From NCBI GenBank assembly GCA_003133205.1, contig PKWK01000009.1:41549-98892 (forward strand): a stretch of 57,344 nt of DNA, given 5' to 3'. This DNA is from Granulicella sp. GTDB lineage: Bacteria; Acidobacteriota; Terriglobia; Terriglobales; Acidobacteriaceae. This document shows positions 22,345-47,637 of the stretch, in pieces (the stretch's first letter is position 1; the number at the start of each line of letters is the position of its first letter). The notes beneath the pieces were generated by a model. The model was not told the DNA's origin and searched no databases. It worked only from the letters and a program-made list of their open reading frames with translations. A program made the position numbers and the translations under genes.

Positions 22345-22361
22345 CAGCGTCCTCCGTTGTT

Positions 22362-22394: not shown

Positions 22395-22445
22395 GCTTCC
22401 GGTCACAGCCGGTTTAGAGATGAAGAATCGTTGTAGGTGGAGAGG

Positions 22446-22479: not shown

Positions 22480-22510
22480 CGGGATTCAATAAGAGGCGAG
22501 GTGAGTCTGC

Positions 22511-23109: not shown

Positions 23110-23111
23110 TC

Positions 23112-23294: not shown

Positions 23295-23325
23295 GCTTTC
23301 ATTGGTGCGGTTGACATGCGTTGGC

Positions 23326-24121: not shown

Positions 24122-24477
24122 AGAACTGCCGCCAATTCCTCGCGCGACGTAATTGGCTTGTCCGGCGCATCGCCGAATGATGCAACCAAGCGAGTCCCTA
24201 ATAGCATGATGAGTTGTATGGCCAAGATTGGCGCCGACAGAACGGGGAGAAAGATCGAAAGAATCATCGCCAATCCAGGCTCGTAGCCGGTTCCTTTCAA
24301 CATCCCGTATGCAACAAAAGAGAGCACAAAGAGAGACCACGCGCAACACGCCAAAAACAGGATCGCAATCGGCCTGACGCGATCTGTCCGAATTTCAACA
24401 TCGCGCCAGTCAATCTCATAGTGACGAGCGAGCTTCGAGAGTATCTTCTCTACATCTGATTTCAGCGTATTGCGCAT
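24112..24477 (-). CDS. Membrane protein of unknown function
   Basis: The 121-residue product has a charged cytosolic start (MRNTLKSDVEKILSKLARHY) and two or three hydrophobic helices (IAILFLACCAWSLFVLSFVAYG; GLAMILSIFLPVLSAPILAIQLIMLLG). The ATG has TAGGAGAACGGA upstream. It overlaps the dinG stop by 16 bases and the DUF1643 start by 10. Function unknown. Confidence 0.65.
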   Translation of the reverse strand: MRNTLKSDVEKILSKLARHYEIDWRDVEIRTDRVRPIAILFLACCAWSLFVLSFVAYGMLKGTGYEPGLAMILSIFLPVLSAPILAIQLIMLLGTRLVASFGDAPDKPITSREELAAVLCP

Positions 24478-26516
24478 TCCGTTCTCCTATCGTCCCTTTG
24501 ACTGGTACATTCGATTACTGCGGGTGGATTTACCTCGCCTCGCCCCATAAATCTTTGAACATCTGCAATGTCATTCGTTATGCGGTACGGCGGCAGACTC
24601 TCGATGAATATGTTCCCGTAGGTTTGGTGCTGGATGCGCCGATCAAGCATGACCAATACACCGCGGTCGGTAGTAGACCGGATGAGCCTGCCAAATCCTT
24701 GCTTGAGGGCAATGGCGGCCTTGGGAACCTGACAGTCGAAGAATCCGCTGCCTCCGCTATTCTCGATCGCCTTGACGCGGGCCATGAGGACTGGATCGCT
24801 GGGTACGCCAAACGGAAGGCGGTCGACAATCACGCAACTCAACTGCTCGCCTTGTACGTCGATGCCTTGCCAGAATGATGAGGTACCAAAGAGAACCGCG
24901 TGCGGTGTCGTTCGGAACTGGTGAAGAAGCTCATTCCTCGTTGTGGTTCCATGTAGGAGCAGCGTATACGGCAGAACATCTTTCAACGCGAGGTGCATCT
25001 TCTGCATCATCTCGTAGCTGGTGAACAGGCAGAAAGCACGCCCCTGGCAGATTCGAAGGACTTCTGCGATATGCGTCTTTGCGGCGTCAAAGAAACCGTC
25101 GTCTCGCGGATCGGGAATGTCTTTTGGCACATACAGAAGCGTCTGCGTTGGGTAGTCAAAGAGGGATGGGACGATGATCTCTTCAGCCTCAGCTATTCCG
25201 AGCGCCTTCCTGAAGTGAGTGAACCCCTTTTGAACTGCGAGTGTCGCCGAGGTAAGGATCGTCGTATCGTATGTCTCGAACACGTTGACAGCCAGAATTT
25301 CAGACACGTCGATGGGCGTGGCCTGAATGAAGGTGTTCAGGGCGTTACCGTGGCCAGAGAGCCGCCGTTCTATCCAGAAAACGGCCGAGTCGGACGTTGA
25401 TTCGACAAGAAAACGAAGCTCTGAAAAGAGTTGGCCGGTTCTCTGGACAAGCGAAGCGGCGGACTCATCATCCTGGGCAACCGACTTGAGAACGCTATGA
25501 AGAAGTTGCAAGGATGACAGTACGCCCGAATAGATCTCATTCCGCGCAACGACAAACTCTGGCCGGCCGTCAAACGCTATCCGAGCTGGCTCTTTCTTTC
25601 CCGGCATTGCGGCCCACAATAAAGCGAATCGCTCTACAACCGTTGCGGCTACCTTGGAGACTTCTGCGCGGCGGTCCGCGTCACTCGTCCCCTTGCGGAT
25701 GTCCCACATGAGATCCTCGACTCTTCGGTTGCTAACGGCCACGCCGAAACAATCAGAAGCAATCTGCTCCAATTCGTGAGCTTCGTCGAAGACAACGGCA
25801 CTGGCAGGAGGCAGAACCGCAGCGTCCGGCGCCTTCATCTTGATTTCGAGGTCGGTAAAGAAGAGGTGATGATTGATGATGACGAGATTGCTTTCTGCCG
25901 CGCGCCGCCGCATCTCCGAAACGCAACAGTCGAGAAAATGAGCGCACTCTTTGCCAACACAAGCGTCTGTGCGGGCGTCGATCCTGCCCCAGAGAGTGCT
26001 TTTCTCGGGCAAGGATGCAATCTCCGCCCGATCGCCCGTAGCCGTCGTCTCGGCCCAATCCTGAATGATCTTGAAGTGAAGGGCTTCCGCCCCGGAGAGC
26101 GACGCCGGGTGCAGGTCTTGGAGTTTCTGCCGACAGAGGTAGTTGCTTCGACCCTTCATGTAGCAGATATTGAGAGGCCCAAGAATTGACTCCAGAAACG
26201 GTACGTCCTTGTAGAACAACTGCTCCTGCAGACTCTTGGTCCCGGTAGACAGAATGATTCGTCTGCCGGTGAGCATAGAGAAGCGCAACGTTGGATAGAT
26301 ATACGCTAGCGTCTTTCCTGTGCCGGTTCCGGCCTCTACGACGAGGTGTGTGCCCTCGATAAGCGCCTTCTCAACGCGGAGTGCCATCTGAAGTTGTCCG
26401 GATCGATACTCGAAGCGGAGACCGCTTGCCTTGGCAAGCACGCCGATTGGCGAAAAGAACTCTCCCACGCTGGGCATGACCATCTTAGTCCGCGCGAGAG
26501 GGATGTCTGGCTTCAT
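24462..26516 (-). CDS. dinG: DinG/XPD-type iron-sulphur DNA helicase
   Basis: The 684-residue protein is a superfamily-2 helicase. The P-loop VEAGTGTGKT is at about residues 60-69. Four cysteines follow (NYLCRQ, then DACVGKEC and FLDCC), matching the Fe-S cluster of the XPD/DinG family. The DEAH box VVFDEAHE is near residue 250, with later motifs TSATL, GTSSFWQGIDVQGEQL and QGFGRLIRS. Such enzymes unwind DNA 5'-3', including R-loops and repair forks. ATG 26516 is preferred over the frame's first GTG at 26540, since the box and -10 element lie between them; eight bases separate TATATG from this ATG, so the message may be leaderless. It leads a seven-gene operon. Confidence 0.9.
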   Translation of the reverse strand: MKPDIPLARTKMVMPSVGEFFSPIGVLAKASGLRFEYRSGQLQMALRVEKALIEGTHLVVEAGTGTGKTLAYIYPTLRFSMLTGRRIILSTGTKSLQEQLFYKDVPFLESILGPLNICYMKGRSNYLCRQKLQDLHPASLSGAEALHFKIIQDWAETTATGDRAEIASLPEKSTLWGRIDARTDACVGKECAHFLDCCVSEMRRRAAESNLVIINHHLFFTDLEIKMKAPDAAVLPPASAVVFDEAHELEQIASDCFGVAVSNRRVEDLMWDIRKGTSDADRRAEVSKVAATVVERFALLWAAMPGKKEPARIAFDGRPEFVVARNEIYSGVLSSLQLLHSVLKSVAQDDESAASLVQRTGQLFSELRFLVESTSDSAVFWIERRLSGHGNALNTFIQATPIDVSEILAVNVFETYDTTILTSATLAVQKGFTHFRKALGIAEAEEIIVPSLFDYPTQTLLYVPKDIPDPRDDGFFDAAKTHIAEVLRICQGRAFCLFTSYEMMQKMHLALKDVLPYTLLLHGTTTRNELLHQFRTTPHAVLFGTSSFWQGIDVQGEQLSCVIVDRLPFGVPSDPVLMARVKAIENSGGSGFFDCQVPKAAIALKQGFGRLIRSTTDRGVLVMLDRRIQHQTYGNIFIESLPPYRITNDIADVQRFMGRGEVNPPAVIECTSQRDDRRTECAIR

Positions 26517-26524
26517 AGTTTCAG

Positions 26525-26556
26525 CATATACCAGTACCACTATGCAGTGGTAGTAT
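26525..26556. promoter_or_regulatory. TACCAC box 4: palindromic operator between dinG and a divergent frame
   Basis: Box TATACCAGTACCACT (26527-26541) is followed by ATGC and AGTGGTAGTATTAG, making the near-perfect palindrome TACCACTATGCAGTGGTA. On the minus strand the box gives the -10-like TATATG directly before dinG. This copy shows both half-sites most clearly. Confidence 0.65.
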
Positions 26557-26595
26557 TAGCGTAATTGAATTGCTTGCTGCTGACGAAAGGCTCAC

Positions 26596-26754: not shown

Positions 26755-26779
26755 TCGTCCTGCTTGACCGGGGGAACCC

Positions 26780-27082: not shown

Positions 27083-27209
27083 TTTTCACCTCTGGGGATC
27101 TGCTTTTGATATAGCGAGTTACACTGAAAACGGTGCCAATTGAGGTACAGTGAGAACCATCAACTTCAGGCTCGGCAGGGAACGCCGGACCGGAATTGAT
27201 AGAGAGACT

Positions 27210-27977: not shown

Positions 27978-28045
27978 GCGCTGGCCCACATGTGTACGCG
28001 CGGTCACCTTTTGAACGCGCGGGCCTCGATATGATGAATGGCACC

Positions 28046-28303
28046 ATGTCAGACGACACATACGTCCGTGGGTTGGTACTAAGGACGGTCCAGATATTGG
28101 TGAGCCACCCAAAAGCAGTCGTTGTTGAATCCGATCGCGAAGCCGATACCGTCACATTCGTAATCTCAGTCGATCGCGATGACTTGGCTAAACTGGGCGG
28201 CAATGACGGACGGATTGCCCACTCGCTAAACATCCTTGTGGGTGCAATAGGCAGGAAGCTCGGGCAGTCAATGTCGGTTGAGATCGACGGGCGCCGCCGC
28301 TAG
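28046..28303 (+). CDS. KhpA-like KH-domain RNA-binding protein
   Basis: The 85-residue product fits the small KH proteins of the KhpA (YlqC) type: VRGLVLRTVQILVSHPKAVV, acidic strand READTVTFVISVDRDDLAKL, the GxxG-like loop GGNDGRIAHSL, then KLGQSMSVEI. KhpA proteins bind RNA, usually with KhpB, and influence cell division and translation. An accessory copy is unusual. It follows the helicase-loader gene by 69 bases, likely in one transcript. ATG 28046 is the start closest to the conserved region; others at 28031/28034 are possible. Confidence 0.75.
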   Translation: MSDDTYVRGLVLRTVQILVSHPKAVVVESDREADTVTFVISVDRDDLAKLGGNDGRIAHSLNILVGAIGRKLGQSMSVEIDGRRR

Positions 28304-28554
28304 ATTCTACCCGCAGCCTTTTGGTCCTCATGCGCGGCTCTCCAGCCCCGCGACCAGCCTGGACCTAGATTCCTGTTGGTTCGCCACACCTCTTCCAGCC
28401 GGGTCCACATCTGAGCGACGGTAGTGCTCTTGGTTTCAAGCATTTCTTCGTCCGTGCGTCCCTCGTAGGCGGCACAGTCCAGCCGATCCTGAAAGCCGAC
28501 CTCGTAATCGGCCAACTCCTCGTCTTCACGCTCGATGTCGTCTATGGAAGGCAT
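28300..28554 (-). CDS. Small acidic unknown protein
   Basis: This 84-residue product begins MPSIDDIEREDEELADYEVG and has a Trp-rich basic end (MWTRLEEVWRTNRNLGPGWSRGWRAAHEDQ). Its 3' end overlaps the KH gene by four bases in convergent orientation. The region 28555-28715 upstream shows no gene I can support. Function unknown. Confidence 0.55.
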   Translation of the reverse strand: MPSIDDIEREDEELADYEVGFQDRLDCAAYEGRTDEEMLETKSTTVAQMWTRLEEVWRTNRNLGPGWSRGWRAAHEDQKAAGRI

Positions 28555-28715
28555 ATACGGTATTGGCGAAGCCAGTTCCCATCATACTGGGCCACTCGAA
28601 ATTGGAGCAAGAAGCGGGTCGACTGGATACTGTTATTCTTGAGCCTGATAAAACCATGGCAAACCGTAAGCGAGTCACGACAATCGGGGGCGCCTTGTGC
28701 TGCGAGATCGCGAGC

Positions 28716-29048
28716 CTACCACCACTCCTGAGCGCCGCCGATCACTGCACGGTGTGAGCGTGTTTCCACTGTCAGCCCATTGTGTCCCCGGAATACACGG
28801 CGAATTGGATCTTTGGACTGAACACTTCCCAGAGCCCCTCCGCCGGGCGTAAACCATCGAAAGTGCTTGGGTTGTAGTAACCCGAATCCATGATCTGCGA
28901 TGATGAGCTTCCCTTGATCGAATACATCAACAATGGCCTCTAGCTTGCCCTCGAATAGCACATACAGTCGAGTATCTGTAAGGATGTAGCGCCTCGAAAG
29001 TGTTTCCTCTATTTGCTTCGGAACTGCGCCAACGTCATAGATACACAC
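28716..29048 (-). CDS. Small unknown protein after the J-domain gene
   Basis: A 110-residue product (GTG start) with RRYILTDTRLYVLFEGKLEAIV and KHFRWFTPGGGALGS; it looks beta-rich. It overlaps the J-domain gene by 40 bases in another frame, so the two are likely coupled. AGGGTGA lies upstream. No family recognised. As the last gene of the repair module it may be a dedicated partner of the J-domain protein. Confidence 0.55.
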   Translation of the reverse strand: MCIYDVGAVPKQIEETLSRRYILTDTRLYVLFEGKLEAIVDVFDQGKLIIADHGFGLLQPKHFRWFTPGGGALGSVQSKDPIRRVFRGHNGLTVETRSHRAVIGGAQEWW

Positions 29049-30934
29049 TGGCTCACCCTGGCGTCTACTTCGATAATCCGTCCGCTATACCCCGCGAGGT
29101 AAGCGTTTTGTCCAGACCTCGCGAAGTTCGCAGCATAGATCCAATCGGCCCCAAATGCCCCTCCGATTTGGACAGACATTAATAGAGTGACTGCCCTCCC
29201 GTCTTTCAAAGTGACTGAGGTGCGATGCAGCATCTGCTCGTAGCTGACTGCCTCCACCTCGGAACTTGATAGGTGCGATACGTCGAGACCGGTGAGCAAC
29301 TCCATTGCTGCCCCGAGTTCCTGAAACCTCTGCGTAAATTCAGGCCGTCCTTGATTTCGATCAGGATGCCAACGCATGGCTAACGCTCTATAGCGTCGCG
29401 TGATCTCATCGGGACTCACTGGCAGAGAAAGCTCCATCAATTTCAGCGCGGCGTTAACGTCAGCACTCACCCCAACTCTTGCGGACCTCTCTGACACGAC
29501 CTCCGTCCAACCTTCCTTAGTGGGGAATCTAATGCCCCAGGTGGGTCGCCCGGTCGCCACGTCATAGCACCAAGCTTCGTCTACGGCGGTCAGAAGATAT
29601 CTTCTCCGATCAGTGGTGAGCGCCACGCAGCGGACGTGACTCTTCAACTGACTGTCTGCGATGCCAAACCGTTTAGCCTGTGCCTGGTATTCGGGGAGAG
29701 TCTCAACGGACTCTTCTATGATAGGTTCGAGTAGTTCGGAATAACCATGAAGTATGCCTTCCGTCGACATGAAGAGGGCACCAGAACCGTCTCCGTTCAC
29801 GTCAGTTCGGTAGACATCGTATTTCAATCCCCGCTCCGCCACTTTCACCCCATCACTATTTGTGGTCATTGCGACCGCAGGTGCCTCCGGGAAATCCTCC
29901 CGCCTGCCTCTAGGATCGAGCCAAACCGTCGAGCCGACGGTAGCGAACATTTGACGATAAGCTGGATTTGGGCGGTCCAGTCCCGACAACTTTATCTCCG
30001 ATAGCAAACTCCATCCGCTACCTGAAACGATGAACCGAGGCATACCAGACCGATTGCTCTGCGCTTCTGAGTTTTCTTCGTGTGCACGTGCCGGAGTATC
30101 ACCCGTTCGGGCGCGCTCCTCCCAACCTATGGGGGTCTTCGGTAGTCGTATGTATGGCAGCTTTCCTACCTGCAGTAGCCGTGCCCGGGCAGCACTTCGG
30201 GATTGCGCGCTCCTAGCCAGAGTCACTGTACTCATGCCTGTCGAAGGAGCGCCCGAACTAGGTCGCTCCTCTGGAGCAACTGTACTGAGGTCGAAGCTCG
30301 CCGAGTAGAGACGAAAGGTTGGTGGCTGGCTGACCCTGCGAATGCGTCCCCCCTTTTCCAGCCAGGAAGCGAGTGCGCTGAGTCGGCGTCCATCTCCCGG
30401 AACAGACTGCTTGAGTTCGCTTTGTTTGATCCCGGGCTCACGTTCAATAGCAGCCACGATGCCTTCAACAAGAACCAAGTCCGAGTCGGCCTGCTCGGCA
30501 GTAGGCATCCATTGATTCAGTTCGGGAGTACCTAACAGCGTTTCCTTCAACTCTCGGATACCGCTCCGATCACCTATGACCGCCATTAGCGTGCCCCCGG
30601 TATGAACGGCGTGCGATGTCGAGATGTCAAAACTTCCGTACGCCCGTTTCATCTCGGCGACCACAGCAGGCATTAGTGGTAAGGTTCTTCGCGCGGCTCG
30701 TACAGCGCGCTCAAAATCACCCGAGGACTTGGCCTCCTCAATCATTCCGCTTAGCTTGAAGTATTCGTCGACAGCGGCTTTTCCCGACAGAACACACGTT
30801 CCTCGGCCCAAGTCTTGTTGAGCAGGATCCGGTTTTCTTCGGCCGGCTTCGGTTTTGCTTCGGGCGGGAAGATCATGCCTACGCGGTGCAGGGCTACTCG
30901 TCACCCCAAAAATCCGTTTCAAGAAACTCAGCAT
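29009..30934 (-). CDS. J-domain protein with winged-helix part
   Basis: The 641-residue protein has a DnaJ-type J-domain at about residues 498-550 (SPDEITRRYRALAMRWHPDRN...FQELGAAMELL). The HPD tripeptide that stimulates Hsp70 ATPase is intact. Residues about 150-205 (LVEGIVAAIEREPGIKQSELK...ASWLEKGGRIRRV) look like a winged helix. Residues about 385-480 contain repeated beta stretches (YDVYRTDVNGDGSGALFM...TTDRRRYLLTAV). No DnaK is encoded in the window, so it must recruit the host Hsp70. ATG 30934 has AAGGA upstream. It follows the AddA-like gene by 82 bases. Confidence 0.75.
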   Translation of the reverse strand: MLSFLKRIFGVTSSPAPRRHDLPARSKTEAGRRKPDPAQQDLGRGTCVLSGKAAVDEYFKLSGMIEEAKSSGDFERAVRAARRTLPLMPAVVAEMKRAYGSFDISTSHAVHTGGTLMAVIGDRSGIRELKETLLGTPELNQWMPTAEQADSDLVLVEGIVAAIEREPGIKQSELKQSVPGDGRRLSALASWLEKGGRIRRVSQPPTFRLYSASFDLSTVAPEERPSSGAPSTGMSTVTLARSAQSRSAARARLLQVGKLPYIRLPKTPIGWEERARTGDTPARAHEENSEAQSNRSGMPRFIVSGSGWSLLSEIKLSGLDRPNPAYRQMFATVGSTVWLDPRGRREDFPEAPAVAMTTNSDGVKVAERGLKYDVYRTDVNGDGSGALFMSTEGILHGYSELLEPIIEESVETLPEYQAQAKRFGIADSQLKSHVRCVALTTDRRRYLLTAVDEAWCYDVATGRPTWGIRFPTKEGWTEVVSERSARVGVSADVNAALKLMELSLPVSPDEITRRYRALAMRWHPDRNQGRPEFTQRFQELGAAMELLTGLDVSHLSSSEVEAVSYEQMLHRTSVTLKDGRAVTLLMSVQIGGAFGADWIYAANFARSGQNAYLAGYSGRIIEVDARVSQCVSMTLAQFRSK

Positions 30935-31016
30935 TTCAGAACGTCCTTCGGTGCCCGATTCGATGCTAACCGAGAGCCCAGTCGATCCGGCCCGGTCATC
31001 GGCTAGAAATATTGAT

Positions 31017-34000
31017 CTAGGTCTGCGGCATCCGCGTTACCGTGATGACGGTTCCAGGCGTAACCAGGACAATCAGCCCGCGCTCGACGTCTGTCATTTC
31101 GAGATAAGCGCCAACTTGTGCGCGATAGCGCTCGATCATTTCGGCGGATGGGGCAACGTCGCTCTTCCAATCCACTACAACCTGTGGCTCACCGTCCGGA
31201 CCGAACGCGATAGCGTCTGCAATACCTGCTGTCGCCTCTTCCTGTTGTTCCGTAACGACCGACGCGTAGACCGGAAACTCCGGCATCAGGCTTGGGCGCA
31301 GCGCCGCGATCTCCGGAAGGGCCAGCGCTCGCATAACGGTGGTAGTGAGTTCTGTGGGCGCGAGCCCCTGGGCCGGATCGTCGACTACGGGACGATTCAA
31401 TGCGCAAATCAGAGTAGCCGCGCGGGCACGGAGCGCCTTCTCGGTTTCTTCGGTTTCTCCGGTTAGGACTTCCTCTATGAGCTTGTGCAGCAAGAGGCCA
31501 CGCTCGCGGCCCCCCTGAACATTGATCGGCGGGTTTTCCTTGGCGGACTCGCCTTCGCGATCAGCTAGCAATATGCCCGGGACCTCTCGTTCCAGCACTG
31601 GCCCTGCCCCGAACTCATCCCTGCTTGGCACGAGCCAGACGATGTGTCGTTGCCGCGCAGCGATTGCCGCAGCTTCGGCGGCGAAGATCTCGCGGGTCTG
31701 GCCGTTCTCTTGAGCGGTCGCGCCGGCGCCGGTGTCGGCAGCAAAATGGCTGACATCAAGGCTGGGAAGGTCAGGAAGGGAGAGGTCGAGCAGCGAGATC
31801 CACGCGGAGCTTCTGGCGGCGACGTCCAATCTGGGCAGAACCAGCAGCTCTCGCGCGCGGGTCGCAGCCACGTACCAGAGACGGATCCGCTCGCGGTCGA
31901 GTTCGGTCTTTTCGGCATCGCGCGCGGTTTCATAGCCGTTTGGCTTGACGCCGAAGACGGGACAATAGAAGTGTCCGCTAGCGCGATCGGTGACGGCGTT
32001 CTCCGGCACCATGATCTGCGTCATGGTATTGATGGGCACGACGATCGGCCATTCCAAGCCTTTGGCGGCGTGCATAGTGTAAAGCGCCACAGCTTCTTCC
32101 TGAGCGTCCGGGCGGCCCTCGATAGCACGCGTTTCGTCGGTCCAGGCCGCGGTCATCGTCTCGGCGAAGGCGCGTAAGCCGCGCACCGCAAAGGACCGGC
32201 TAAGGGACAGGTAGAGATCGACATTGGCGAGCGCGCGTTCGGCCTGCCCGCGATGGCGCTCGAGGAGAATCGGGCGCATCCGGAGTACGTCGACCGCTTG
32301 CGATAGGAGGTCGTATGGCGTAGTGGCGTTGATCCGGCGACGCAACACCTGCAGTCTGCCGATCATGTCGCGAGCAAGAGGATGGCTTAAATGCTCGGGA
32401 TCGACGCCAAGATCGAGCCGCGGCAGAGCGTCGGGCATTGTCTCCAAGCGCGGCAACGCCCAGACGATATCAAGCAACTCCTCCTCGCTTAGACCAACGA
32501 GCGGTCCGCGTAGCACTGCGCCGAGTGCGAGCGTATCCCTTTGGTCCGCCAGGACGCGGGTGATTGCAATGAGATCTTGAATCTCTTGACGGCGGAACAG
32601 ACCTTTCCCGGCTTGGGTTGAGACCGGAATGCCGCGTCGCTCCAGCGCCTCTTCATAGCGCCACAGATCACTTCCCGTCGGCGCCAACAGGGCGATATCG
32701 CCGGGCCGGCATGGTCGGCGCTCGCTGGTTCTCCGATCAAAGATCGCATCGCTGCCGATGAGGCGTGCGCACATATCGGCGACGGCTTCAGCTTCGCCGT
32801 CCCGCCTCTGCTCCGCCGAGGCGTTGCCATTCTCGTCCGCGACCGCAACGTCAAGGGCAGCGACGCACAAACCCTCATCACGCTCGGAATGAAAAGCGTC
32901 CAACGGGGTGAAGCCTGGCTGACCGTTCTCGACCGAGAGAAGGGTTCCAAAACGCTCGTTCACGTACTTCAAGATCGGCGCACATGAGCGGAAGTTGGTA
33001 GAGATCGGCAGCACGCTTTCGGGGGCCTGGGCCAGGAAGGCCTCGCGCGCCTGAATATAAGCGGCGACGTCAGCGCCGCGAAAGCGATAGATCGCCTGTT
33101 TGGGATCGCCCACCAAGAACAGCGCGCCCGGCCGAATGCAGAACGCCGTCCAGTCGGCGCCACCCACCCCGGGCGGCGGTTCGCCACAAAGACGCCAGAA
33201 GATTTCGGTCTGAAGCAGGTCGGTGTCTTGAAACTCGTCGACGAGGACATACGCAAACTGGGCGGCAAGCGCGTGGCGTACGGCTTCGTGGTCACGCAGC
33301 AGATCGCGGGCGGAGAAGATCAGGTCATCGAAGTCAAGCAGCGCTGCAGATCGCTTGTAGTCCCGGAACCGGTCCATTACCGGTTGCACGAGGCGTACGA
33401 GGTCAGCAAGAACGCGCGCCGCAACCGCCTTCAACAGCCTTGTCCATGTCTCGCAGGAATTTGCATTGTAAGTCTCGGCTGCGGCATTCAGCCGGTCGCC
33501 ATCGGCCTTCGAGAGTCCCACCCGCTTGGCAGCTTCGCCCCATTTTCCCTTTTTCTTATAGGCACGGAAGCTCCCGGTAGCCGTGCAAAGATCAGGGTGC
33601 GGACGCGCGATCAACAGCCGAACGAGATCAACTGGTGCTTCGGCGGTGAGAGCAAAAGCGACGTCCTCAGCCATCTCGGAGAAACGCGCAGCCATCGCGG
33701 CGGTTTCCGGCTCATCGGCGGTGGCATCCCGCACGAAGGCGGAAAAATTATCTGCCGCCTGCCGAAAGGCGCTCACCAGCGGCGTCAAGGCACTCGGCTC
33801 GTCGACGGTCATCACGCGTCGTCCGCGGAGATGACGCAGGATGGTATGAATGAGATCGACGGTTTCGCCCGGCTCCCGGATCACCATCTCGGCGAGGAGA
33901 CTGCCGCCGTCGCCCGCCAGTTCCTCGCGGAGCCAGGTCTCGGTCGTCTCGACAAAAGCGAGATCGGATTGGTTGCGGTCCATCACCGCAGCCCCGGGAT

Positions 34001-34415
34001 CGATATTGGCTTCTACTGGATAAGGCTTGATCAGACCCTGGCAGAAGCCGTGAATCGTTGAACAGGTGATTTCGTCGATCGTTTCGCTGGCGACCGCGAG
34101 GTTCTGCCGATGCCGATCGGCGAGGCCGTTGGGCAAAGCAACACGCAACTCGGCCGGGATGCGCCCGGCGTTGAGTTCACCGACAAACTCACGCACTCGA
34201 ATTATGAGTTCGCTGGCCGCGAGCTCGGTGAAGGTCACCGCCGCGATCGTTTTGGGGGCTATGCCTTCAGACAACATTAAGGCGACGCGGCCGGCCATGA
34301 TCGCGGTCTTTCCCGAGCCGGCGCCGGCCTCGACCAGGAAGGCGCGATCATGAACCGCCATAGCATCGCGGCGGGAAGCGTCATCGGCGAGCGATTTCAT
34401 CGGCGTGGACATCAT
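31017..34415 (-). CDS. AddA-like UvrD helicase-nuclease
   Basis: The 1132-residue protein is a superfamily-1 helicase. It has the P-loop VEAGAGSGKT (residues 28-37), motif Ia VTFTELAASEL, motif II VLVDEFQDTD and motif VI RLWYVAATRARELL. The C-terminus has a PD-(D/E)XK nuclease (DAIAFGPDGEPQVVVDWKS). That is the AddA/RecB-like helicase-nuclease architecture, which resects broken DNA ends with a partner. Its start overlaps the stop of the AddB-like gene by four bases (ATGA). GC looks higher than in flanking genes (39 of 60 bases in one sampled line near 32,161). It probably forms a heterodimer with the AddB-like protein. Confidence 0.85.
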   Translation of the reverse strand: MMSTPMKSLADDASRRDAMAVHDRAFLVEAGAGSGKTAIMAGRVALMLSEGIAPKTIAAVTFTELAASELIIRVREFVGELNAGRIPAELRVALPNGLADRHRQNLAVASETIDEITCSTIHGFCQGLIKPYPVEANIDPGAAVMDRNQSDLAFVETTETWLREELAGDGGSLLAEMVIREPGETVDLIHTILRHLRGRRVMTVDEPSALTPLVSAFRQAADNFSAFVRDATADEPETAAMAARFSEMAEDVAFALTAEAPVDLVRLLIARPHPDLCTATGSFRAYKKKGKWGEAAKRVGLSKADGDRLNAAAETYNANSCETWTRLLKAVAARVLADLVRLVQPVMDRFRDYKRSAALLDFDDLIFSARDLLRDHEAVRHALAAQFAYVLVDEFQDTDLLQTEIFWRLCGEPPPGVGGADWTAFCIRPGALFLVGDPKQAIYRFRGADVAAYIQAREAFLAQAPESVLPISTNFRSCAPILKYVNERFGTLLSVENGQPGFTPLDAFHSERDEGLCVAALDVAVADENGNASAEQRRDGEAEAVADMCARLIGSDAIFDRRTSERRPCRPGDIALLAPTGSDLWRYEEALERRGIPVSTQAGKGLFRRQEIQDLIAITRVLADQRDTLALGAVLRGPLVGLSEEELLDIVWALPRLETMPDALPRLDLGVDPEHLSHPLARDMIGRLQVLRRRINATTPYDLLSQAVDVLRMRPILLERHRGQAERALANVDLYLSLSRSFAVRGLRAFAETMTAAWTDETRAIEGRPDAQEEAVALYTMHAAKGLEWPIVVPINTMTQIMVPENAVTDRASGHFYCPVFGVKPNGYETARDAEKTELDRERIRLWYVAATRARELLVLPRLDVAARSSAWISLLDLSLPDLPSLDVSHFAADTGAGATAQENGQTREIFAAEAAAIAARQRHIVWLVPSRDEFGAGPVLEREVPGILLADREGESAKENPPINVQGGRERGLLLHKLIEEVLTGETEETEKALRARAATLICALNRPVVDDPAQGLAPTELTTTVMRALALPEIAALRPSLMPEFPVYASVVTEQQEEATAGIADAIAFGPDGEPQVVVDWKSDVAPSAEMIERYRAQVGAYLEMTDVERGLIVLVTPGTVITVTRMPQT

Positions 34416-37072
34416 TGAGCCGCCCAGACTTCCGCCGTGGCTCCGAGACGCGCGGTTGCGGCGGCAATTTTGCGTTTGCAGTAAGCGGCGTTCGCGTTGG
34501 CCGGCAGTGCGAACGCGAAGTCGTCATAAGGCCCTCCCGTGTCGATCCCGATCACACCTCCGCCGGAGAGAAGGTTTGCTCTGGCTTCGCGCAGGTACGT
34601 GGCAACCTCGATGAGGGTCGCTTCCGGATCGGCGAGCCTTAAATCGAGCCCGTCCCGAAGATAGAGAAGTGAGGCGCTGATCTCGACATCATTACCGAGC
34701 ATCGCCTTGACCGCAAAGGCGTAGAGGCAGCGCTGCAGTTCCTTGCCGCCGTCGACGACAATGCTGTCCTTGGGCTTGCGCCCGGTCTTGTAGTCCCGCA
34801 CCAAAGCGCCCCGGCCGTCGCCAGCGATATCCAGGCGGTCGATGGAGCCTTTGATCCGGAAGCCCGCACCGGGAATCTCGACGCTTACCGTCGGGTCCCA
34901 GGGCGGAGTCACGTCTGCCTTGGCCTGTTCGCCGCCGAACGGGACTTCGCTATAGGAACGTGCGCCAGGCAGCACTTCATCGCTAAACGCGAGTGCGCAG
35001 CGACTCAGTTCCCGCGCATCGTCCAGCGTGCGCCCCCAAATGACGCTCGGCGGTATAGCACGCTTCATCTCCCAATCACGGGCGACATCAACGGCAGCGA
35101 GGTCCACCGCCGCTGAAATCTGCTCAGAACTAGCGGTGGTGAGCCCACCCGCCGACTCTAAGGTGTGCAGCGCCCGATCAAGGGTCAAATGGACGAGATC
35201 CCCAATCGCGAGGGCGTCGAGCACCAACGGTTCATTACCGCTCTCAGGCGCCCGCCAGTGGAGGCCGTATTGCCAGACAAATCCGAGCGGATTACGCAGG
35301 AGTTGCCGCAGTGAACTCGCCGACTGAGTGCGGCCAAGGATGGCGTGCATCACCGGATGATCTGCGCGAACCAACCCGTCGTGTGGGGTGATTTCCGAGC
35401 GCAGCCAGTCGCGCCAGGAGGAGGAGGCCGAGAGCGCCTGAGGCAGGCCGCGAAACTCCTGCGGTCGTCCCATCAGGCGGTCGGTTTCACTGAAGGCATG
35501 ATTAGGCACAGCATTGCGCCGCAGATAGGTTTCCATCGGCTCTCCCTGTAGCAGCGTGCTGCGGCCAAGGAGGCGGCCGTCGGTATCGCGCCGAGCCCGC
35601 GAAAGAACAACCTGCCGTTCGGTGGTGGCGAGAATCGTCGAGAAATCTCGGCGGTCCGCAGCACCAACTGGAAGGGGATCGAGTTCCGCGGTGGGAATGA
35701 TGTGGTCAGAAAGCAGCCGATCTTCGGAGATTCCTCGAGGCCAGCGTGAGGAATTGAGGCCTAGCAGCCGTACAAACCGGCGTGGTGAAGCCGCGAGTGA
35801 ACTCGCCGGCATCCAGGCGAGCGAGACGCAGGCATCTAGTCCGTCATCCTGCCTCAACGTCTCCAAAGTGAGGTCGAGGGAAGCAGCCGGACCGGCGAGC
35901 AAAGCCTTACGCCAGATCGACAACGCCCGACCGTGCAGCAGCGCCGTACCGATTGCGTCAGCCGCCTGCGCACCTTGGGCCAGCAGCGACACAATGTCCC
36001 GCAAAGCTGCTCCGTGATTGACTGCATCCGGCCAATCGGTGGCTGTTGTACGACCAATGAGCCGCGTCCAAGATTCAGGCGATGCCAGGGGGGCATCGGC
36101 CGGCAGGATACGAGTCCACCCTTCCGGTAGCGCCTGGAACGGCCCAGGATAGACGCTCAAGAGCGCCGACAGCCGGCGCATCCGCGTCTGCGACAGCCCG
36201 CGTAGCAGTATGTCCGCTAGTGCCGCTGTTGATTGCCCTTCCCGGCACGCCGTGATTTTTACGCCATGAACGAAATGGAGATCGATATTGGCGTCGGCCC
36301 GCAATGTCAGAAAGTGGTCGTCATAATCGGCCGGCGCGACGGAGGCGACAGCGATATCGCTTGGTTCAGCCGCCCCCGATGCCATCAACTCTCGCGCCCA
36401 GCGCAGGGCTTCAATAGCTTCATGAAAAGCAGTGGCCGCACTGACGGTGGCAATCGCCGGCGCTTGCGGTTCTGTGCTAACAATCTCAATTCGCTCGCCG
36501 TCGAGCCAATCAGGAACGGACCGCGGACCGGCGTTCCACCGCACCTGAACGCGCTCGGCCAGCGCATGTAGCAGGGGCCGCCAGCACGGCGACAACTCTG
36601 TGATGCCAACAATCTCAACTGGACCGAACAGCGTCTCGGCAAAGTCGAGCCGCTGCAAAGCCGCCGCGACAAGGTCGATGGGACGCAGCATAGCGGCTGG
36701 CATGGCGTGCAGAATAGCCTTTTCGAGGGCGGCGATCGACGCCAAGCGAGGATGCTCGGCGGCGCGTGCCTGAAGATCGAGCCCCGCGCGCCAGGCCTTG
36801 TGTAGCGTATCGACGGCGGCCCCTACCATACCGGGGAGGGCTCTCAGGGCATCGAGCTCGCCAAGCTCCGTCTCCGGCAAGCACGTCTGGACTATAGATC
36901 GTAGGGTCTCCTCAGCGACGGGCTGGGAAAGACCGCCGGCCAGTCGCGCTACGAGTTGCTCAAAGGTCATGATCTGCATGCCGTGGCGCCGCTCCCGCGC
37001 CGCGGCGAGTCGGATCTCGCGCATTGCGAGTCGACCGTGCGCGATGACTGTATGCCGTAACCGTTGTGTCAC
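34412..37072 (-). CDS. AddB-like PD-(D/E)XK nuclease
   Basis: The 886-residue protein has an inactive-helicase-like body and a C-terminal Cas4/AddB-type nuclease: IKGSIDRLDIAGDG, then LVRDYKTGRKP, with D and DxK residues near 740-760. The stretch LRQLLRNPLGFVWQYGLHW near residue 560-590 is also typical of AddB-like proteins. Together with the adjacent AddA-like protein it should process double-strand ends. GTG 37072 is chosen, preceded by a G-rich tract. It lies 82 bases after the SbcC-like gene. Confidence 0.8.
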   Translation of the reverse strand: MTQRLRHTVIAHGRLAMREIRLAAARERRHGMQIMTFEQLVARLAGGLSQPVAEETLRSIVQTCLPETELGELDALRALPGMVGAAVDTLHKAWRAGLDLQARAAEHPRLASIAALEKAILHAMPAAMLRPIDLVAAALQRLDFAETLFGPVEIVGITELSPCWRPLLHALAERVQVRWNAGPRSVPDWLDGERIEIVSTEPQAPAIATVSAATAFHEAIEALRWARELMASGAAEPSDIAVASVAPADYDDHFLTLRADANIDLHFVHGVKITACREGQSTAALADILLRGLSQTRMRRLSALLSVYPGPFQALPEGWTRILPADAPLASPESWTRLIGRTTATDWPDAVNHGAALRDIVSLLAQGAQAADAIGTALLHGRALSIWRKALLAGPAASLDLTLETLRQDDGLDACVSLAWMPASSLAASPRRFVRLLGLNSSRWPRGISEDRLLSDHIIPTAELDPLPVGAADRRDFSTILATTERQVVLSRARRDTDGRLLGRSTLLQGEPMETYLRRNAVPNHAFSETDRLMGRPQEFRGLPQALSASSSWRDWLRSEITPHDGLVRADHPVMHAILGRTQSASSLRQLLRNPLGFVWQYGLHWRAPESGNEPLVLDALAIGDLVHLTLDRALHTLESAGGLTTASSEQISAAVDLAAVDVARDWEMKRAIPPSVIWGRTLDDARELSRCALAFSDEVLPGARSYSEVPFGGEQAKADVTPPWDPTVSVEIPGAGFRIKGSIDRLDIAGDGRGALVRDYKTGRKPKDSIVVDGGKELQRCLYAFAVKAMLGNDVEISASLLYLRDGLDLRLADPEATLIEVATYLREARANLLSGGGVIGIDTGGPYDDFAFALPANANAAYCKRKIAAATARLGATAEVWAAQ

Positions 37073-37154
37073 GTGGCCCCCCCAAACTCCATCTGTTACG
37101 GTCGGTCCCAGAAGTCTACATAGAGAAAAGCCATGGAGGCAGCGTTCAAGTGCC

Positions 37155-39848
37155 TCAAGCGGATTGAGTGATAACGTTTAGACGATGACCGCCTAAACGG
37201 GCGAAAATCTCCCGGCGGCAAGTGAAAATCAGAATCTGCGTTCGGGTTGCCGCACGCGAAATAAGGTCGAACATCCGCTCCATCCGCTCAGGGTCCGAAT
37301 AGACAAGGGCATCATCCAGAATGACCATCGCGGGCTGACCGCCTTCTTTCAGAACGTCTGCAAAGGCGAGCCGCGTGAGCACGGCAATCTGTTCTTGGGT
37401 GCCTCCGGATAAGCCCGTGAATGATTCAGATTGTTGGGACTCACGCACGATGCCCGTGATTTTGAACTCATCGTCGCAGCTAATGGCCGCCCCAGGAAAC
37501 AGAGTTTGTAAATATGGAGTCACGCGACGCACTATAGGAGCTAGGTAGCGCTCCTTGGCCGCCCGTTCGGCAGTCTCAAGACTTTCCAACAGCAGTTCCA
37601 GAACCTTTATCTCTCGCACAAAACGCTGACAGGTCGCTTCGAGGGATTCAACCAGTCGCTGCGCGGACGAAACCTGCTCCTCAATGCCGACGCCTTCTTC
37701 GCGCTCGATTCGGCTTTCAAGAATCGCGATGTCCTGACTTGTTTGCTGGCGGTCGTCTGCATACATCTGCTTAGCTTTCTGATACCGGGCAATGCGTGCG
37801 TCCATCCCGGCGACAGTTTCCTCCGGTCTGTTCCTTTGCATCTCCTCGACAACGCCACGCTGGGCCAGTAAAGCCACGTTTGCGGTCTTGAGGCGCTCGG
37901 CAAGGGTTTCTGGAGTCTCTTGCAGAAGAAGGCGATCGCGCTCTCGCGTGCGCCTTTGCTGTTCTTCAACCGCCGCTTCCTTTTGGCTTTCCGCCTGCGC
38001 ATGAAGCCGGAGCAATTTACTGTGCTCGCGTTCGAGGTCAGCGATAGGTGCCCGTGCGATAGCCAGCTTGCTGGATGCGTCAGATTCCTCCTTAACTGCC
38101 TTTCTCAGGGCCTCGCTAGCCATGGCGAGTTTAGGAAGCGCCGAAATACCAGCAGTAGTCATACCGTCTTCGAGGGCAGTCGAGAGAACGGAAATATGAT
38201 TCCGGAGGCTCTCCAGACCCGCTTTCAGCTTTTGTGCGGAATCCGCGGGAGTGTGGGTTGCCACTTCGAGACGCGTCTGTTCGAGTTCACGCTCACATTG
38301 CTGGCGCGTGGCGAGGAGTGCCTCGGCGTGCTCGATGTCGTCGGCTGAGATCGATTGCAGCGCATTACGCAGAGCGCGGGCTTCGCTGACCTGGCGAGCA
38401 AGCAATGTTTCGCGGTCCTTGATGCCAGGCTGGATCTTGATGTCTCCTAACCCCTCGATTGCGATAGAGGCGTCTTCGATAACCGGAATCGTTCCATTTG
38501 AGGGGTGTTGCCCATTGACCTTGACGCGCGCAATCGCGTCAGGCAACAAGACGAAAGTGAGCTGCGTTGCCTGAGCTTCCAGTACAGCTTGGGTCTGGCG
38601 CAACTTTTTATCGAGGGAACGAACGTTGGTCAGGTCGGCCTCAGAGATCGAGGCTGAGGCTAGTTTTGCTGTAAGCGCGTTGACCTTGGTTTGCGCTGCC
38701 TCACCAAGCATGAGGCGCTCGTTGAGGGTCACGAGATTCGCCGATGTTGTAGCGAGGTCGACGACGGTTCGAGCGGTGCGTGCACCGGCCGCGGCTTGGT
38801 CATAATCGTTACTCAGAGCGGCAACGAGTTCTCGCTGCTGAGTCAACGCTAGTTCCGCCTCATGGTAGGCTTCGAATGCCGCGGTTTCCTGGTTGGCCAA
38901 TAGTGTAAGGGCATCTTCTGCGGCGGCGATTCTGGAGAGCAACTCGGCTCGGCTATCAACATCTCGAACGACATCGGCAACCCGGCTTTCGTAGAGACTT
39001 AAAGTAGCCGCAGCCGTGCGTTCTTGCTCCTCAAACCGTTGCGCTACGTCTCGCTTCTGTCCGGCCTCCGCAAGCAGGGTGTCCGTGCGCTCTTCTTCGC
39101 CAGCGGCCAACGCATCAGCGCGCCTTCGTCTGGCATTTTGGAGAGAGCGAACGTCCTGGACGAGTCGTTGCTGACGCCCTTGGATCTCGCTCAACTCCTC
39201 CTTCGCGTGCTCGAGTTCCTCAATCGTTTGTTTGTAGCGTCCTGCCGGTTTGCCGAGCCCGTTCCTGATCCTCGCGAGGTCGGCTCGCACATCAGCAAGA
39301 AGCATCTTCCCGCGTGTTCCACCGGCAAGTGCGCCCACTTCATCTTCTAAGCAGCCGTGGATAGTTTGACGGGCCGAATCGCTCAAGTCTGCTTGATCTG
39401 CCGAGTCTCGCTGGGTCACCCACAACGCCGCCCACATGCCCACATTTTCAGGCTTCGAGCCGGTTTTGCCAGCCTGAGTGAAATTCAGAATGTGCTGGAG
39501 ATGTTCCTCTGCGGCTTCGCCGTGGTGAATGGTGCCATTCGGCATCGTCAGCCGCGCATATGGCTCCTTATGCAAAAAACGCTTCTCAATTTTGTATCGG
39601 CCCGAGGAAAGCTCAAACTCTAACTCCACGGTTGGCGACGTCTTATTGGTCCAGTGCTGCATGGACGCTACGTTGGCAGCCTTTGAGACATGTCGCTCAA
39701 AGAGAACTCCCCGAATTGCGGCGAGCAACGTAGACTTGCCGAATTCGTTTCCCTCCGCGAGGACATTCACACCATCCGCTACGCCTGTGAGGATGATTGG
39801 ATCGGTGAACTTACGAAAATGCTCAATGCGAAGCGAACGTATCTTCAT
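37155..39848 (-). CDS. SbcC/YhaN-like SMC-type ATPase without zinc hook
   Basis: The 897-residue protein has an N-terminal P-loop variant (VLAEGNEFGKST), long coiled coils (about 170-420 and 460-760), an ABC signature SGGTQEQIAVL and Walker B MVILDDALVYSD near residue 850. In place of the CxxC zinc hook of Rad50/SbcC, a beta-rich module (about 435-485, VNGQHPSNGTIPVIED... IAIEGLGDIKIQPG) sits at the coil apex, as in YhaN-like ATPases. These pair with a metallophosphoesterase and act on DNA ends. Its ATG overlaps the stop of the SbcD/YhaO-like gene by four bases. Confidence 0.85.
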   Translation of the reverse strand: MKIRSLRIEHFRKFTDPIILTGVADGVNVLAEGNEFGKSTLLAAIRGVLFERHVSKAANVASMQHWTNKTSPTVELEFELSSGRYKIEKRFLHKEPYARLTMPNGTIHHGEAAEEHLQHILNFTQAGKTGSKPENVGMWAALWVTQRDSADQADLSDSARQTIHGCLEDEVGALAGGTRGKMLLADVRADLARIRNGLGKPAGRYKQTIEELEHAKEELSEIQGRQQRLVQDVRSLQNARRRRADALAAGEEERTDTLLAEAGQKRDVAQRFEEQERTAAATLSLYESRVADVVRDVDSRAELLSRIAAAEDALTLLANQETAAFEAYHEAELALTQQRELVAALSNDYDQAAAGARTARTVVDLATTSANLVTLNERLMLGEAAQTKVNALTAKLASASISEADLTNVRSLDKKLRQTQAVLEAQATQLTFVLLPDAIARVKVNGQHPSNGTIPVIEDASIAIEGLGDIKIQPGIKDRETLLARQVSEARALRNALQSISADDIEHAEALLATRQQCERELEQTRLEVATHTPADSAQKLKAGLESLRNHISVLSTALEDGMTTAGISALPKLAMASEALRKAVKEESDASSKLAIARAPIADLEREHSKLLRLHAQAESQKEAAVEEQQRRTRERDRLLLQETPETLAERLKTANVALLAQRGVVEEMQRNRPEETVAGMDARIARYQKAKQMYADDRQQTSQDIAILESRIEREEGVGIEEQVSSAQRLVESLEATCQRFVREIKVLELLLESLETAERAAKERYLAPIVRRVTPYLQTLFPGAAISCDDEFKITGIVRESQQSESFTGLSGGTQEQIAVLTRLAFADVLKEGGQPAMVILDDALVYSDPERMERMFDLISRAATRTQILIFTCRREIFARLGGHRLNVITQSA

Positions 39849-40978
39849 TGCGCCGCCGTGTGACGCATATGCAGGACGTACAGCCGTTGCAGGGCCTCGG
39901 CCGCAATGTCGCGGTCTTGGTTTTGGATATCTTGCGCAAGCCCTGAAAGTTGGTTCGCCGCCACCCGTACAAAGCCTACGTGGTCAATTGCCTCAAGTTC
40001 TGCCGCAGAGGGCTTTAGAAAAAGCTCGTCGGCGTTTAGTCGCAGTGCCCGCAACGCGCTCCCGAGAGATGTACTAATTCTCTGTTCAAAATAATCCCGA
40101 GCGGACAGGTCCAAGGTGCCACTGACCTTGAGTTGGAGGAGTACGCGGCTGAGGTCCGGATGGAGGCCCCGAATCTGCGTCTCGAGTGCGTCCACATCCT
40201 CAACGGAATTGACCATGGCAGACAATACGTGCCAGGTGAAGCGCCCTGAAACCAGTGGCGTCACAGTCGGAAGCGCCAGAGAGGTAACTTCGACCAGCAG
40301 TACGTGGCCCTCGGAATTATTGGCGTCAAAACGGTCTGGCTCGGGAGTGCCGGAGTACCAGGTTCGGTCGTCGATCCGGGTCATGCCATGCCAGTCGCCA
40401 AGCGCGAGGTAGTCCAGCTTAGCTGTTGCAGCGCGGTCCGCTGCCAAAAGGTTATTGGTGCTGGATTCAGTAGAGCCAAAGCTCCGCACTGATCCGTGGG
40501 CCAACCCGATGCGAATTGCGCCAGCCGGGGTCTCGGCATTATCAAACAGACCGGTTGGATCCCCGATCATGTGGCGCTGAGTCAAAATCGCGGGGATAAT
40601 CCATGCGGAGCCATCAGCTATGGGCCGGGGCTCCGTCGACGTATGAATAATCACATTCGGGGGTAATCCAGTGCGGACTAGCCGTTCCCAAGGTGAATTG
40701 GCGGTGTGAGCATCGTGATTTCCGGGTATGAGGTGCCACTCAATCCCGGGAAACTGACGCATGCGCTCGATCGGGCGAAGGAGTATATCGAGACCCGGAT
40801 ACGCGTTCTCATAGATATCACCGGCTACGAGTACGGCTTCCGCCTGTCTTGAGACAGCGAGCTCGCCTACGCGCGAGATAACTTCCAGGCGCTCGGCGCG
40901 CAGAATTGCCAAGGTCTCGTCGTCGACGAATCCGAAGGTTTTCCCAATTTGAAGGTCGGAAGTGTGGAGAAATCGCAT
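39845..40978 (-). CDS. SbcD/YhaO-like metallophosphoesterase (DNA exonuclease subunit)
   Basis: The 377-residue protein has the calcineurin-like nuclease motifs: HTSDLQIGKTFG (residues 5-16; Gln where DxH is usual), VAGDIYENAYP near 55, IPGNHDAHT near 92, IGLAHGS near 170 and LALGDWHGM near 205. YhaO/SbcD proteins cut DNA ends using two metals, with the SMC-like partner as ATPase. ATG 40978 is chosen because residues upstream in the longer frame (to 41065) are not conserved-looking. It opens the end-processing operon. Confidence 0.85.
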   Translation of the reverse strand: MRFLHTSDLQIGKTFGFVDDETLAILRAERLEVISRVGELAVSRQAEAVLVAGDIYENAYPGLDILLRPIERMRQFPGIEWHLIPGNHDAHTANSPWERLVRTGLPPNVIIHTSTEPRPIADGSAWIIPAILTQRHMIGDPTGLFDNAETPAGAIRIGLAHGSVRSFGSTESSTNNLLAADRAATAKLDYLALGDWHGMTRIDDRTWYSGTPEPDRFDANNSEGHVLLVEVTSLALPTVTPLVSGRFTWHVLSAMVNSVEDVDALETQIRGLHPDLSRVLLQLKVSGTLDLSARDYFEQRISTSLGSALRALRLNADELFLKPSAAELEAIDHVGFVRVAANQLSGLAQDIQNQDRDIAAEALQRLYVLHMRHTAAQ

Positions 40979-45516: not shown

Positions 45517-47118
45517 AGTCGGCCAGAACAATCTCTGTCACGACTGAGACGTTACCCTCCCACTCCTAACGTCCTCACCGAGTCCACCACCAACCCTCGC
45601 CGTATCTTCGAGGACGTAGCCCTAAGAGAGCTTGCCGAGTCCATTCGAGTCCAGGGCGTTCTTTCACCCTTGCTCGTTCGCCCTCTTACCGGGCAGAGCT
45701 TCGAGATCGTTGCAGGAGCCAGACGCTACCGCGCCGCTCAGATGGCCGAGGCCGCAACCGTTCCCGCTCGCATCGTCAACCTAACGGATGCCGAGGCGAT
45801 GGAAGCCGCGCTGATTGAGAACCTGCAACGCCGCGACGTTCATCCTTTGGAGGAGGCGCAGGGCTTTCATGCGCTCTTGAATCTGGAGGAACCGAAGTAC
45901 AGCATCGAACAGATCGGGGCCAAGGTTGGCAAGGCTCCGGCGTACGTCGCCAGCCGCGCCCGATTGACGGAACTTATCCCGGCAGTGGTCGAGGCGTTCT
46001 ATGCCGAGGAAATCGGAGTTGGACACGCCTTGCTTCTGGCGAAGCTCCAGCCAGCCCAGCAGGAAGCAGCCCTCAATAATTGCTTCCGCGAGGAGTGGAG
46101 CGGGGCAGGGGGGAAAGCCAAGCGCATCGTCCTTCCCGTCCGGCACCTTCAACACTGGATAGAGCACAACGTCCTCTTGCTCCTGAAACAGGCGCCGTTC
46201 AACAAGCGTGATGCCCAACTCGTTCCCGCCGCCGGAAGTTGCGTTGATTGCCCCAAGCGCACCGGACACAACAAGCTGCTTTTCGCGGATGTGAGCGGGA
46301 ACGCGGACGCTTGCACCGATCCAATCTGCTATGCCGCCAAGCTGGAAGTACACGTCCAGAAGGAGATTGCAGCCAAACCGGAGATAGTGCAGATCAGCAC
46401 GGCCTACGGCAAGACGCAGGATGGCAGCAAGATCATCACCCGTAGCAAGTACGTTGAGATTCGCGCGGACAAGCCGGACACCCCGGAGAAAGCGAAGCAG
46501 CCGGAGTTCAAGACGTGCAAGTTCATCGCCGAAGCCATCGTCTCCGAAGGCATCGACAAGGGCGAAGTGCGGAGGGTTTGTGCCGAAGCGGATTGCCCGA
46601 TTCATCACCCCAAGAAGCAGTCCACAAAGGCCGATGCCAGCTTCAAAGCCGAGCAGGACAAGAGCCGGAGAGAACAAGCACTGGCGAACGCTACCGGAAT
46701 GCGCGTGCTGCAAACCATCGTCGCCGCCGTTCCAGTTCGATTGATGAAGCGAGACTTTCTCTTCATCGCCGAACAGATGCTCCCGTTGCTTGACGACAAG
46801 CGGCTGGAGATGATCGCTCGGAACCGAGGCATCAGAGCGAAGGAAGGCGAAACCGCAGCCAAGCTGCTAACCGCATTTCTTCGTAAGGCCGAAGAGGGCG
46901 TTATGGGCAAGCTGATCGTCGAGGCTGTCATCCTGCTTTCGGCGAGCAAGCAAGCGGACGGAGGTAAGGTTCTCCGCGCCGCAGCCCAGGCGTATAAGGT
47001 GGACACCGATGCAATTGCCCTCAAGGTCAAGCATGAGTTCGCCGCCAAAGAGAAGGCGAGGTCCGCTGCAAAGATCGAACCGAAGCCAGTACCGAAGGCA
47101 TTGAAGAAGATCGCCTAA
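45517..47118 (+). pseudogene. ParB-like partition protein with damaged 5' end
   Basis: The open frame carries a ParB/RepB nuclease-like domain: NVLTESTTNPRRIFED, LAESIRVQGVLSPLLVRPL, GARRYRAAQ, ENLQRRDVHPLEEAQGF, followed by the HTH region YSIEQIGAKVGKAPAYVASR. A long C-terminal part has Cys pairs (CVDCPKRTGHNK, CTDPICYA) and an Ala/Lys tail. ParB proteins bind parS and help DNA segregation. The frame is open from 45517 but has no ATG, GTG or TTG before TTG 45670, which lies inside the conserved domain. An ATG at 45433 leads into a different frame, and a third frame (ISVTTETLP) holds residues that seem to belong just before NVLTEST. Two frameshifts near 45510 and 45560 would explain this. Product activity is doubtful unless a sequencing error is involved. 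Confidence 0.7.
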
Positions 47119-47228: not shown

Positions 47229-47637
47229 GGTACGCCGTGCATGAATGACAGCTTGGGGGTGTAAGTCCCCTTCACATCCTGATGGAGGAGAAGTGATAGC
47301 GAAGCGCAAAGGCGTCATCGCGAGGTGGGGTCTGGAGGAAGCGTGGAGCAAAGACGCGAGCCGATGGACAAGAACCGGATATGAGGCATACGGCGCTGGA
47401 CGAGCTGGCCAATGACAGCGAAGTCCACATCCATCAAGAGCGCTGGTTGTAGATTCGGCGGTTGCGCGTTGAAGGCGGTCATTCTTATCGCGGGAGGTCT
47501 GCTGCATGTCCCGGAACCGGGACTGAGGGTGGAGCGATCCACTCTGACCGTGCGGCAGGAGTCAGCAGCGGGCATAGTAGTCGCGCAAGCGGCGAAGGCC
47601 CAAACGGAAGGAAGCGGCAAGTAGGCGGCGCGACTCG

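Follow-up and report, generated by a model that had tools for sequence, protein, structure and literature searches.

Enzymes of the SbcCD type act on DNA ends, on hairpins and on ends blocked by proteins; AddAB degrades DNA from free ends. Both are encoded together in Bacillus subtilis, where addB-addA-sbcD-sbcC lie in one putative operon and sbcC and addAB mutants are sensitive to DNA damage (available part of PMC1533848). Across genomes, SbcCD and RecBCD/AddAB co-occur above expectation (available part of PMC1193525), and an end-sensing role has been described for Rad50 (available part of PMC10586767). Related combinations are found in defence: Lamassu (DdmABC) has a Rad50-like ATPase and a nuclease, and Gabija has a UvrD helicase and a nuclease. 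Here we analyzed 57,344 nucleotides of Granulicella sp. (Acidobacteriota; assembly GCA_003133205.1, contig PKWK01000009.1, positions 41,549 to 98,892), referred to below as the window, in which an SbcD-SbcC pair (SbcDC), an AddB-AddA pair (AddBA) and a gene for a J-domain protein (J) follow one another on the minus strand (Table 1).

The locus resembles the B. subtilis operon in that the same two enzyme pairs adjoin. Joining them is therefore not unprecedented, and the preliminary description of the locus, which spoke of two normally separate nuclease complexes, has to be amended, since they are not always separate. In the B. subtilis operon, however, AddBA comes first, the enzymes are housekeeping repair enzymes and no J gene is named in the available part of PMC1533848, whereas the window proteins belong to divergent, defence-linked lineages. 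The locus differs from Lamassu in that SbcC matched LmuB only weakly (2e-6); LmuA and other Lamassu models were not among the PADLOC matches listed (for AddA, 25 of 45 families). It also differs from Gabija, as there is no GajA-GajB pair, the GajA matches to SbcC are weak and the GajB matches to AddA are generic for UvrD. At an E value of 0.001, AddB, SbcD and J had no match in PADLOC 2.0.0, whose matches to SbcC and AddA were all weak or generic. In literature searches, we recognised no paper describing Azaca, BREX or Shango loci that contain an AddAB-like pair, and UvrD, AddB, SbcC and RecB did not occur in the available main text of a paper on BREX-related systems (PMC12839542). Based on sequence comparison, the locus is probably a mosaic of two portable, defence-linked end-processing modules and a J-domain gene on a mobile or accessory replicon, a reading to which we give a probability of roughly 0.55. 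The exact gene set was not found elsewhere in the sequence searched, and its building blocks recur.

The AddBA lineage was found beside defence systems. The sample consisted of 38 AddB loci, with the eight below 50% identity counted apart, and took in some of the 40 listed among 63 plasmid records with AddB matches. Neighbours were named from PADLOC models, record annotation and tblastn to those proteins. BREX, Hma, Shango, ThiF/multi-ubiquitin and HerA-SIR2 counted as named systems, as did Azaca when two or more of its genes were present; the models Zac, Sng, Hma and Bil are referred to as Azaca, Shango, Hma and Bil, respectively. Such a system lay within 11 kb at 25 of the 30 loci with at least 50% identity. 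Azaca-type genes were close by at 17 of these loci, with two or more at 12 of the 17. The other recurring neighbours were a WYL regulator (16 loci), a 1112-aa DEAD helicase (nine), Hma (seven), Shango (five), ThiF/multi-ubiquitin (four), BREX (three) and HerA-SIR2 (two). Azaca and Shango are named as systems in the available part of PMC10952713.

The window AddB was 58-76% identical to the first 24 plasmid matches and closest (74-76%) to those of L083 and L010, which have the order WYL-AddB-AddA-Azaca, and L128, which has WYL. In alphaproteobacterial loci with the order WYL-AddB-AddA-partner (L001, L010, L012, L083 and others; AddB 62-76% identical), the AddB-AddA pair is followed by a co-oriented gene, as in the window, and this gene can adjoin AddA as closely as 14 bases (L010, L012, L109). 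The partner in loci of this type is Azaca or the DEAD helicase (HerA-SIR2 in L087), whereas it is J in the window, and WYL, Shango or ThiF stands upstream in place of SbcDC. A trio of response regulator, 192-aa protein and UvrD helicase precedes multi-ubiquitin/ThiF genes in L002, L003, L108 and L110. The trio lies before AddBA in these four loci, with genes between, and before SbcDC in L118; therefore, both pairs can take like positions.

A similar picture emerged for SbcDC. A tree of 36 SbcC sequences placed the window protein in a group with those of L011, L096 and L103 (support 95/99). Gene context was compared for 18 of the 51 matching Hyphomicrobiales genomes (mostly the top-scoring ones), four plasmids and L103. 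The neighbours in the window group were SIR2-HerA in L011, Gabija in L096 and OLD, HEC-07 and J in L103, so that searched defence genes were near all three grouped loci versus three of the 20 other SbcC loci (L117, L118 and L138). L138 was counted by one weak HerA match and L118 by UvrD2, plus BilD. Outside the window group, SbcDC stands beside DUF4297-HerA in L117, a long branch whose placement is unsure, and follows the trio, several small genes and BilD in L118. The three grouped loci share the SbcD-SbcC pair with the window but do not have AddBA of the window's lineage. L103, from Dadabacteria, gives the only further example of J close to SbcDC of this lineage, and its J is convergent with the nuclease genes, whereas that of the window is co-oriented. 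A full-length HSP70 gene precedes SbcD in L103 and, as the only one found in that metagenome-assembled genome, may be the housekeeping DnaK.

Several observations weigh against the mosaic reading. A named system was lacking at L113, L116, L124, L128 and L133, five of the 30 AddB loci; L124 covers only 3.9 kb, the sole matches in L128 were to WYL and, weakly, ZacC, and L113 has, by annotation, a row of methyltransferase, helicase, ATPase and restriction endonuclease. Of the eight loci below 50% identity, two had WYL, one had ThiF/multi-ubiquitin and five had none of the searched genes. Neither SbcDC nor J was found at any of the 38 AddB loci, and the partner genes compared (including WYL, BREX, Azaca and Shango; Hma and Gabija were outside the set) are absent from the window. 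The reference proteins were drawn from the loci examined (WYL and the helicases from AddB loci) and only the PADLOC names are independent, so the neighbour counts measure recurrence and are not an unbiased survey; other defence genes would escape them. The SbcC contrast is likewise partly circular, since GajAB came from L096, SIR2-HerA from L011, OLD and HEC-07 from L016/L103 and DUF4297 from L117. Seventeen of the 23 SbcC loci had no searched gene, although other kinds of defence gene near them would escape the search, and the window group is small, with four rows. In L011, a distantly related AddAB-like pair is encoded on the strand opposite to SbcDC, some 3.6 kb away. Finally, SbcC is not epistatic with AddAB in B. 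subtilis and the two have distinct functions (available part of PMC1533848), which argues against one pathway.

The family content given in the preliminary description was borne out by Pfam: a metallophosphatase, an SMC/Rad50-like ATPase, a PD-(D/E)XK protein, a UvrD helicase and a DnaJ domain. The canonical AddAB domain make-up is present, with a UvrD helicase and a RecB-type nuclease in AddA and PD-(D/E)XK in AddB. The AddA nuclease was assigned from motifs, as Pfam listed no nuclease domain there. In a 33-row alignment, the AddA residues GKT and DEFQDT were invariant where covered, and the nuclease D and DWKS were invariant in the 22 rows reaching that region. The AddB nuclease motif DYK was present in 21 of 22 rows. 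In SbcC, GKST (Walker A), the signature and the Walker B residues were kept across 26 rows. Thus, active-site residues are retained in AddA, AddB and SbcC. The SbcD motifs GD, GNHD and GDWH were invariant across 23 rows, and its motif I is D-x-Q (Q in 18 of the 23 rows) rather than D-x-H, presumably the usual form. SbcC matched SMC_N just under the cut-off (38.3 bits versus 40), SbcC_Walker_B just over it (27.1 versus 27) and Rad50 chains in PDB at 1.9e-6. A zinc hook CxxC was not found in the SbcC alignment, no NCBIfam model matched SbcC, and Pfam found no OLD-TOPRIM domain in the five genes. AddB has seven cysteines with no pair at CxxC spacing, which we take to be part of the Fe-S cluster motif.

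These proteins could instead form an element-borne operon for double-strand-break repair or replication restart, which would preserve its host replicon much as in B. subtilis. The shared pairs and mutant phenotypes of B. subtilis and the genomic co-occurrence of the two enzymes introduced above are consistent with this, as are a ParB-like gene, RNase HII and an ATP-dependent DNA ligase domain encoded in the window. However, three of the proteins fall under repair-family cut-offs: AddA scored 282.5 bits against addA_alphas (cut-off 860.75), short of the canonical AddA threshold, AddB scored 28.8 against TIGR03623 (cut-off 299.6) and SbcD scored 52 against the NCBIfam sbcd model (cut-off 77.65). 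Since their nearest relatives also stand in defence-type surroundings, we regard a repair operon as improbable. The preliminary description had offered plasmid repair, restart or phage defence as roles; given that the lineages of both nuclease pairs are found beside antiphage systems, phage defence appears to be the best lead for both.

The minus-strand open reading frames (ORFs), called by script without a gene finder, were found where they had been placed before. The ATGA overlaps (SbcD/SbcC and AddB/AddA) that tightly join each pair and the two 82-base gaps were confirmed too. The gaps are dissimilar in sequence, with a best local match of seven bases between the gap regions; therefore, their equal length looks like a coincidence. 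Promoter and terminator scans gave 2 and 13 sites, compared with 4.3 and 12.6 in shuffled sequence. Insertion scars flanking AddBA were rejected, as the two flanks of about 300 bases have no common word of at least 10 bases.

Five genes were found rather than the six claimed, because the supposed small partner, the sixth, belongs to the C-terminal end of J. The ORF at 29009-30934 encodes 641 aa and overlaps that at 28716-29048, which encodes 110 aa; most close relatives of J have a length of about 735-747 aa. In four complete relatives, 107-110 residues of the shorter ORF aligned with the C-terminal part absent from the longer one, and a six-gene operon was rejected on this alignment. The 110-aa ORF matched no family because it is not a separate gene. 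The C-terminal part was present in 17 of 18 rows of the alignment; the remaining row (P0001), the nearest J relative at 95%, itself diverges from the family pattern towards the end, so that both copies are flawed. On this alignment, J appears to be one gene with a frame change in this contig, which may reflect either decay or sequencing error. Programmed frameshifting is not favoured, since relatives read through in a single frame. Other J genes also seem broken, with two frames in L020 and an internal stop in L034 (= L105/L107). The DnaJ domain lies at residues 499-548 (3.1e-11) and an HPD motif is present in the translation. The protein lacks the full DnaJ architecture (TIGR02349 31.7 bits versus a cut-off of 377.2), and a solved-structure profile search matched the family over the J-domain region only.

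The preliminary description treated the genes as one compact module. In the loci and genomes examined, no conserved module with this gene set was found. The J sample comprised 27 loci, 24 in GTDB contigs and three of four plasmid matches (Leisingera was left out), with only a C-terminal fragment in L036 and contigs under 9 kb for L013, L023, L026 and L035. These loci span Acidobacteria, Dadabacteria, Nitrospira, Gemmatimonadota, Alphaproteobacteria, Desulfobacteraceae and others. In the available sequence around each, AddBA was found at none of the 27 and SbcDC at one. On three Rhodobacterales plasmids, J lay near ParB and replication genes, with no nuclease pairs in the stretch examined. J was present in three of 396 genomes of the phylum of genome G018, two of which were known already, and SbcC matched two of 19 genomes with J loci, once at the L016 locus and once as a weak partial match. 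Among 397 Hyphomicrobiales genomes, 12 had AddB and 51 had SbcC; one had both, on separate contigs (about 1.5 expected if independent). AddB was found in seven of 381 genomes of the class of genome G011. No long contig was common to the relatives of J (120 of 127), SbcC (105) and AddB (120 of 1453), taking the longest contig per cluster, and three short contig coincidences each joined J and SbcC. At the DNA level, six of 72,556 plasmid records matched part of the stretch and none covered 80%. SMC_N matched eight of 87 J neighbours within two genes versus two of 103 four to six genes off, a weak difference on which we do not build because at least one and probably two of the eight come from one locus (L016).

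One possible explanation of these counts is that SbcDC, AddBA and J are three independently mobile cassettes that became neighbours by chance and do not cooperate, with J an orphan that sometimes decays. The broken J genes here, in L020 and in L034 fit this, as does base composition. GC was 0.62-0.63 in AddBA, 0.57 in SbcDC, 0.56 in J and 0.558 in the window outside the stretch; GC at third codon positions (GC3) was 0.68-0.70, 0.60-0.62 and 0.56 in the three cassettes. This contrast is consistent with AddBA as a separately acquired cassette, which the mosaic reading would also predict, but the window ParB gene has a GC3 of 0.72, so it is not decisive. The arrangement itself speaks against chance, since the genes are all co-stranded with short gaps, J occupies the post-AddA slot held by partner genes elsewhere and SbcDC is near J in a second phylum as well (L103). 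We consider chance assembly of all three possible but rather unlikely. Neighbourhoods pointing to a chance presence, which the preliminary description had named as its refutation, were largely found for J but left the defence link of either nuclease pair standing. The mosaic of two defence-linked pairs is the preferred reading.

If the two pairs of the mosaic cooperate, the known activities of SbcCD-type enzymes and AddAB would allow a two-step attack on incoming DNA. The SbcC ATPase would clamp ends, hairpins or protein-blocked ends, SbcD would trim or open the clamped DNA, and AddAB would load on the freed end, unwind the invader and degrade it. We infer the target DNA and this cooperation, as well as the replicon type and any joint action of host DnaK and the J protein; that action may have been lost here, given the disrupted frame of the J gene. 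Host DnaJ is required for sensing by bNACHT25 (available part of PMC12169576); by analogy, a defence role for the J protein is plausible, and its role in this locus is unproven. A more far-reaching proposal is that SbcDC, AddBA and J (in intact relatives) form a composite defence complex. SbcDC would open blocked or hairpin ends of the invader, AddBA would degrade it from there and J would recruit DnaK to strip proteins off the DNA. In a wider sense, the two pairs would be interchangeable modules for end processing on which many defence systems draw. We hold this proposal to be doubtful.

Several other genes in the window were noted (Table 1). In L096, a gene for a relative of the ParB-like protein stands upstream of SbcDC in divergent orientation. 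No CRISPR-like repeat array was found in positions 17000-29000, around the DinG-like gene. A phage origin of the locus was not supported: among 50,697 phage records, AddB and SbcC had no match (J was not searched there), and pattern scans of IMG/VR, two of them with single proteins that reach close relatives only, gave no confirmed relative of J, AddB or SbcC.

Table 1. Genes of the locus and other features noted in the window (window positions)
Feature	Position	Strand	Details
SbcD/YhaO-like metallophosphoesterase	39845..40978	-	377 aa; Pfam Metallophos 4.2e-7
SbcC/YhaN/Rad50-like coiled-coil ABC ATPase	37155..39848	-	897 aa; Pfam SMC_N, SbcC_Walker_B
AddB-like PD-(D/E)XK nuclease protein	34412..37072	-	886 aa; PDDEXK_1 5.6e-20
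AddA-like UvrD helicase with C-terminal RecB-type nuclease motifs	31017..34415	-	1132 aa; UvrD-helicase 1.2e-49
J-domain protein gene, two ORFs by frame change	28716..30934	-	DnaJ domain 3.1e-11 and alignment
ParB-like protein	45670..47118	+	
DinG-like helicase	24462..26540	-	PADLOC type IV CRISPR DinG model, 1.7e-125
Group II intron RNA, then reverse transcriptase/maturase	47314..49020	+	Intron RNA by Rfam
RHS-repeat protein	50576..55846	+	1756 aa; glucosaminidase-like region near end
Protein with FG-GAP, PA14 and Ig-like repeats	2905..9099	-	2064 aa

Since this AddB matched no PADLOC 2.0.0 model, the AddB-AddA pair is a concrete candidate for study, both by itself and together with its partners. 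Should AddBA and SbcDC prove to be portable helpers common to Azaca, BREX, Hma, Shango and HerA-type systems, a DNA-degrading step could come to these systems from them, and such helpers could account in part for why defence genes cluster.

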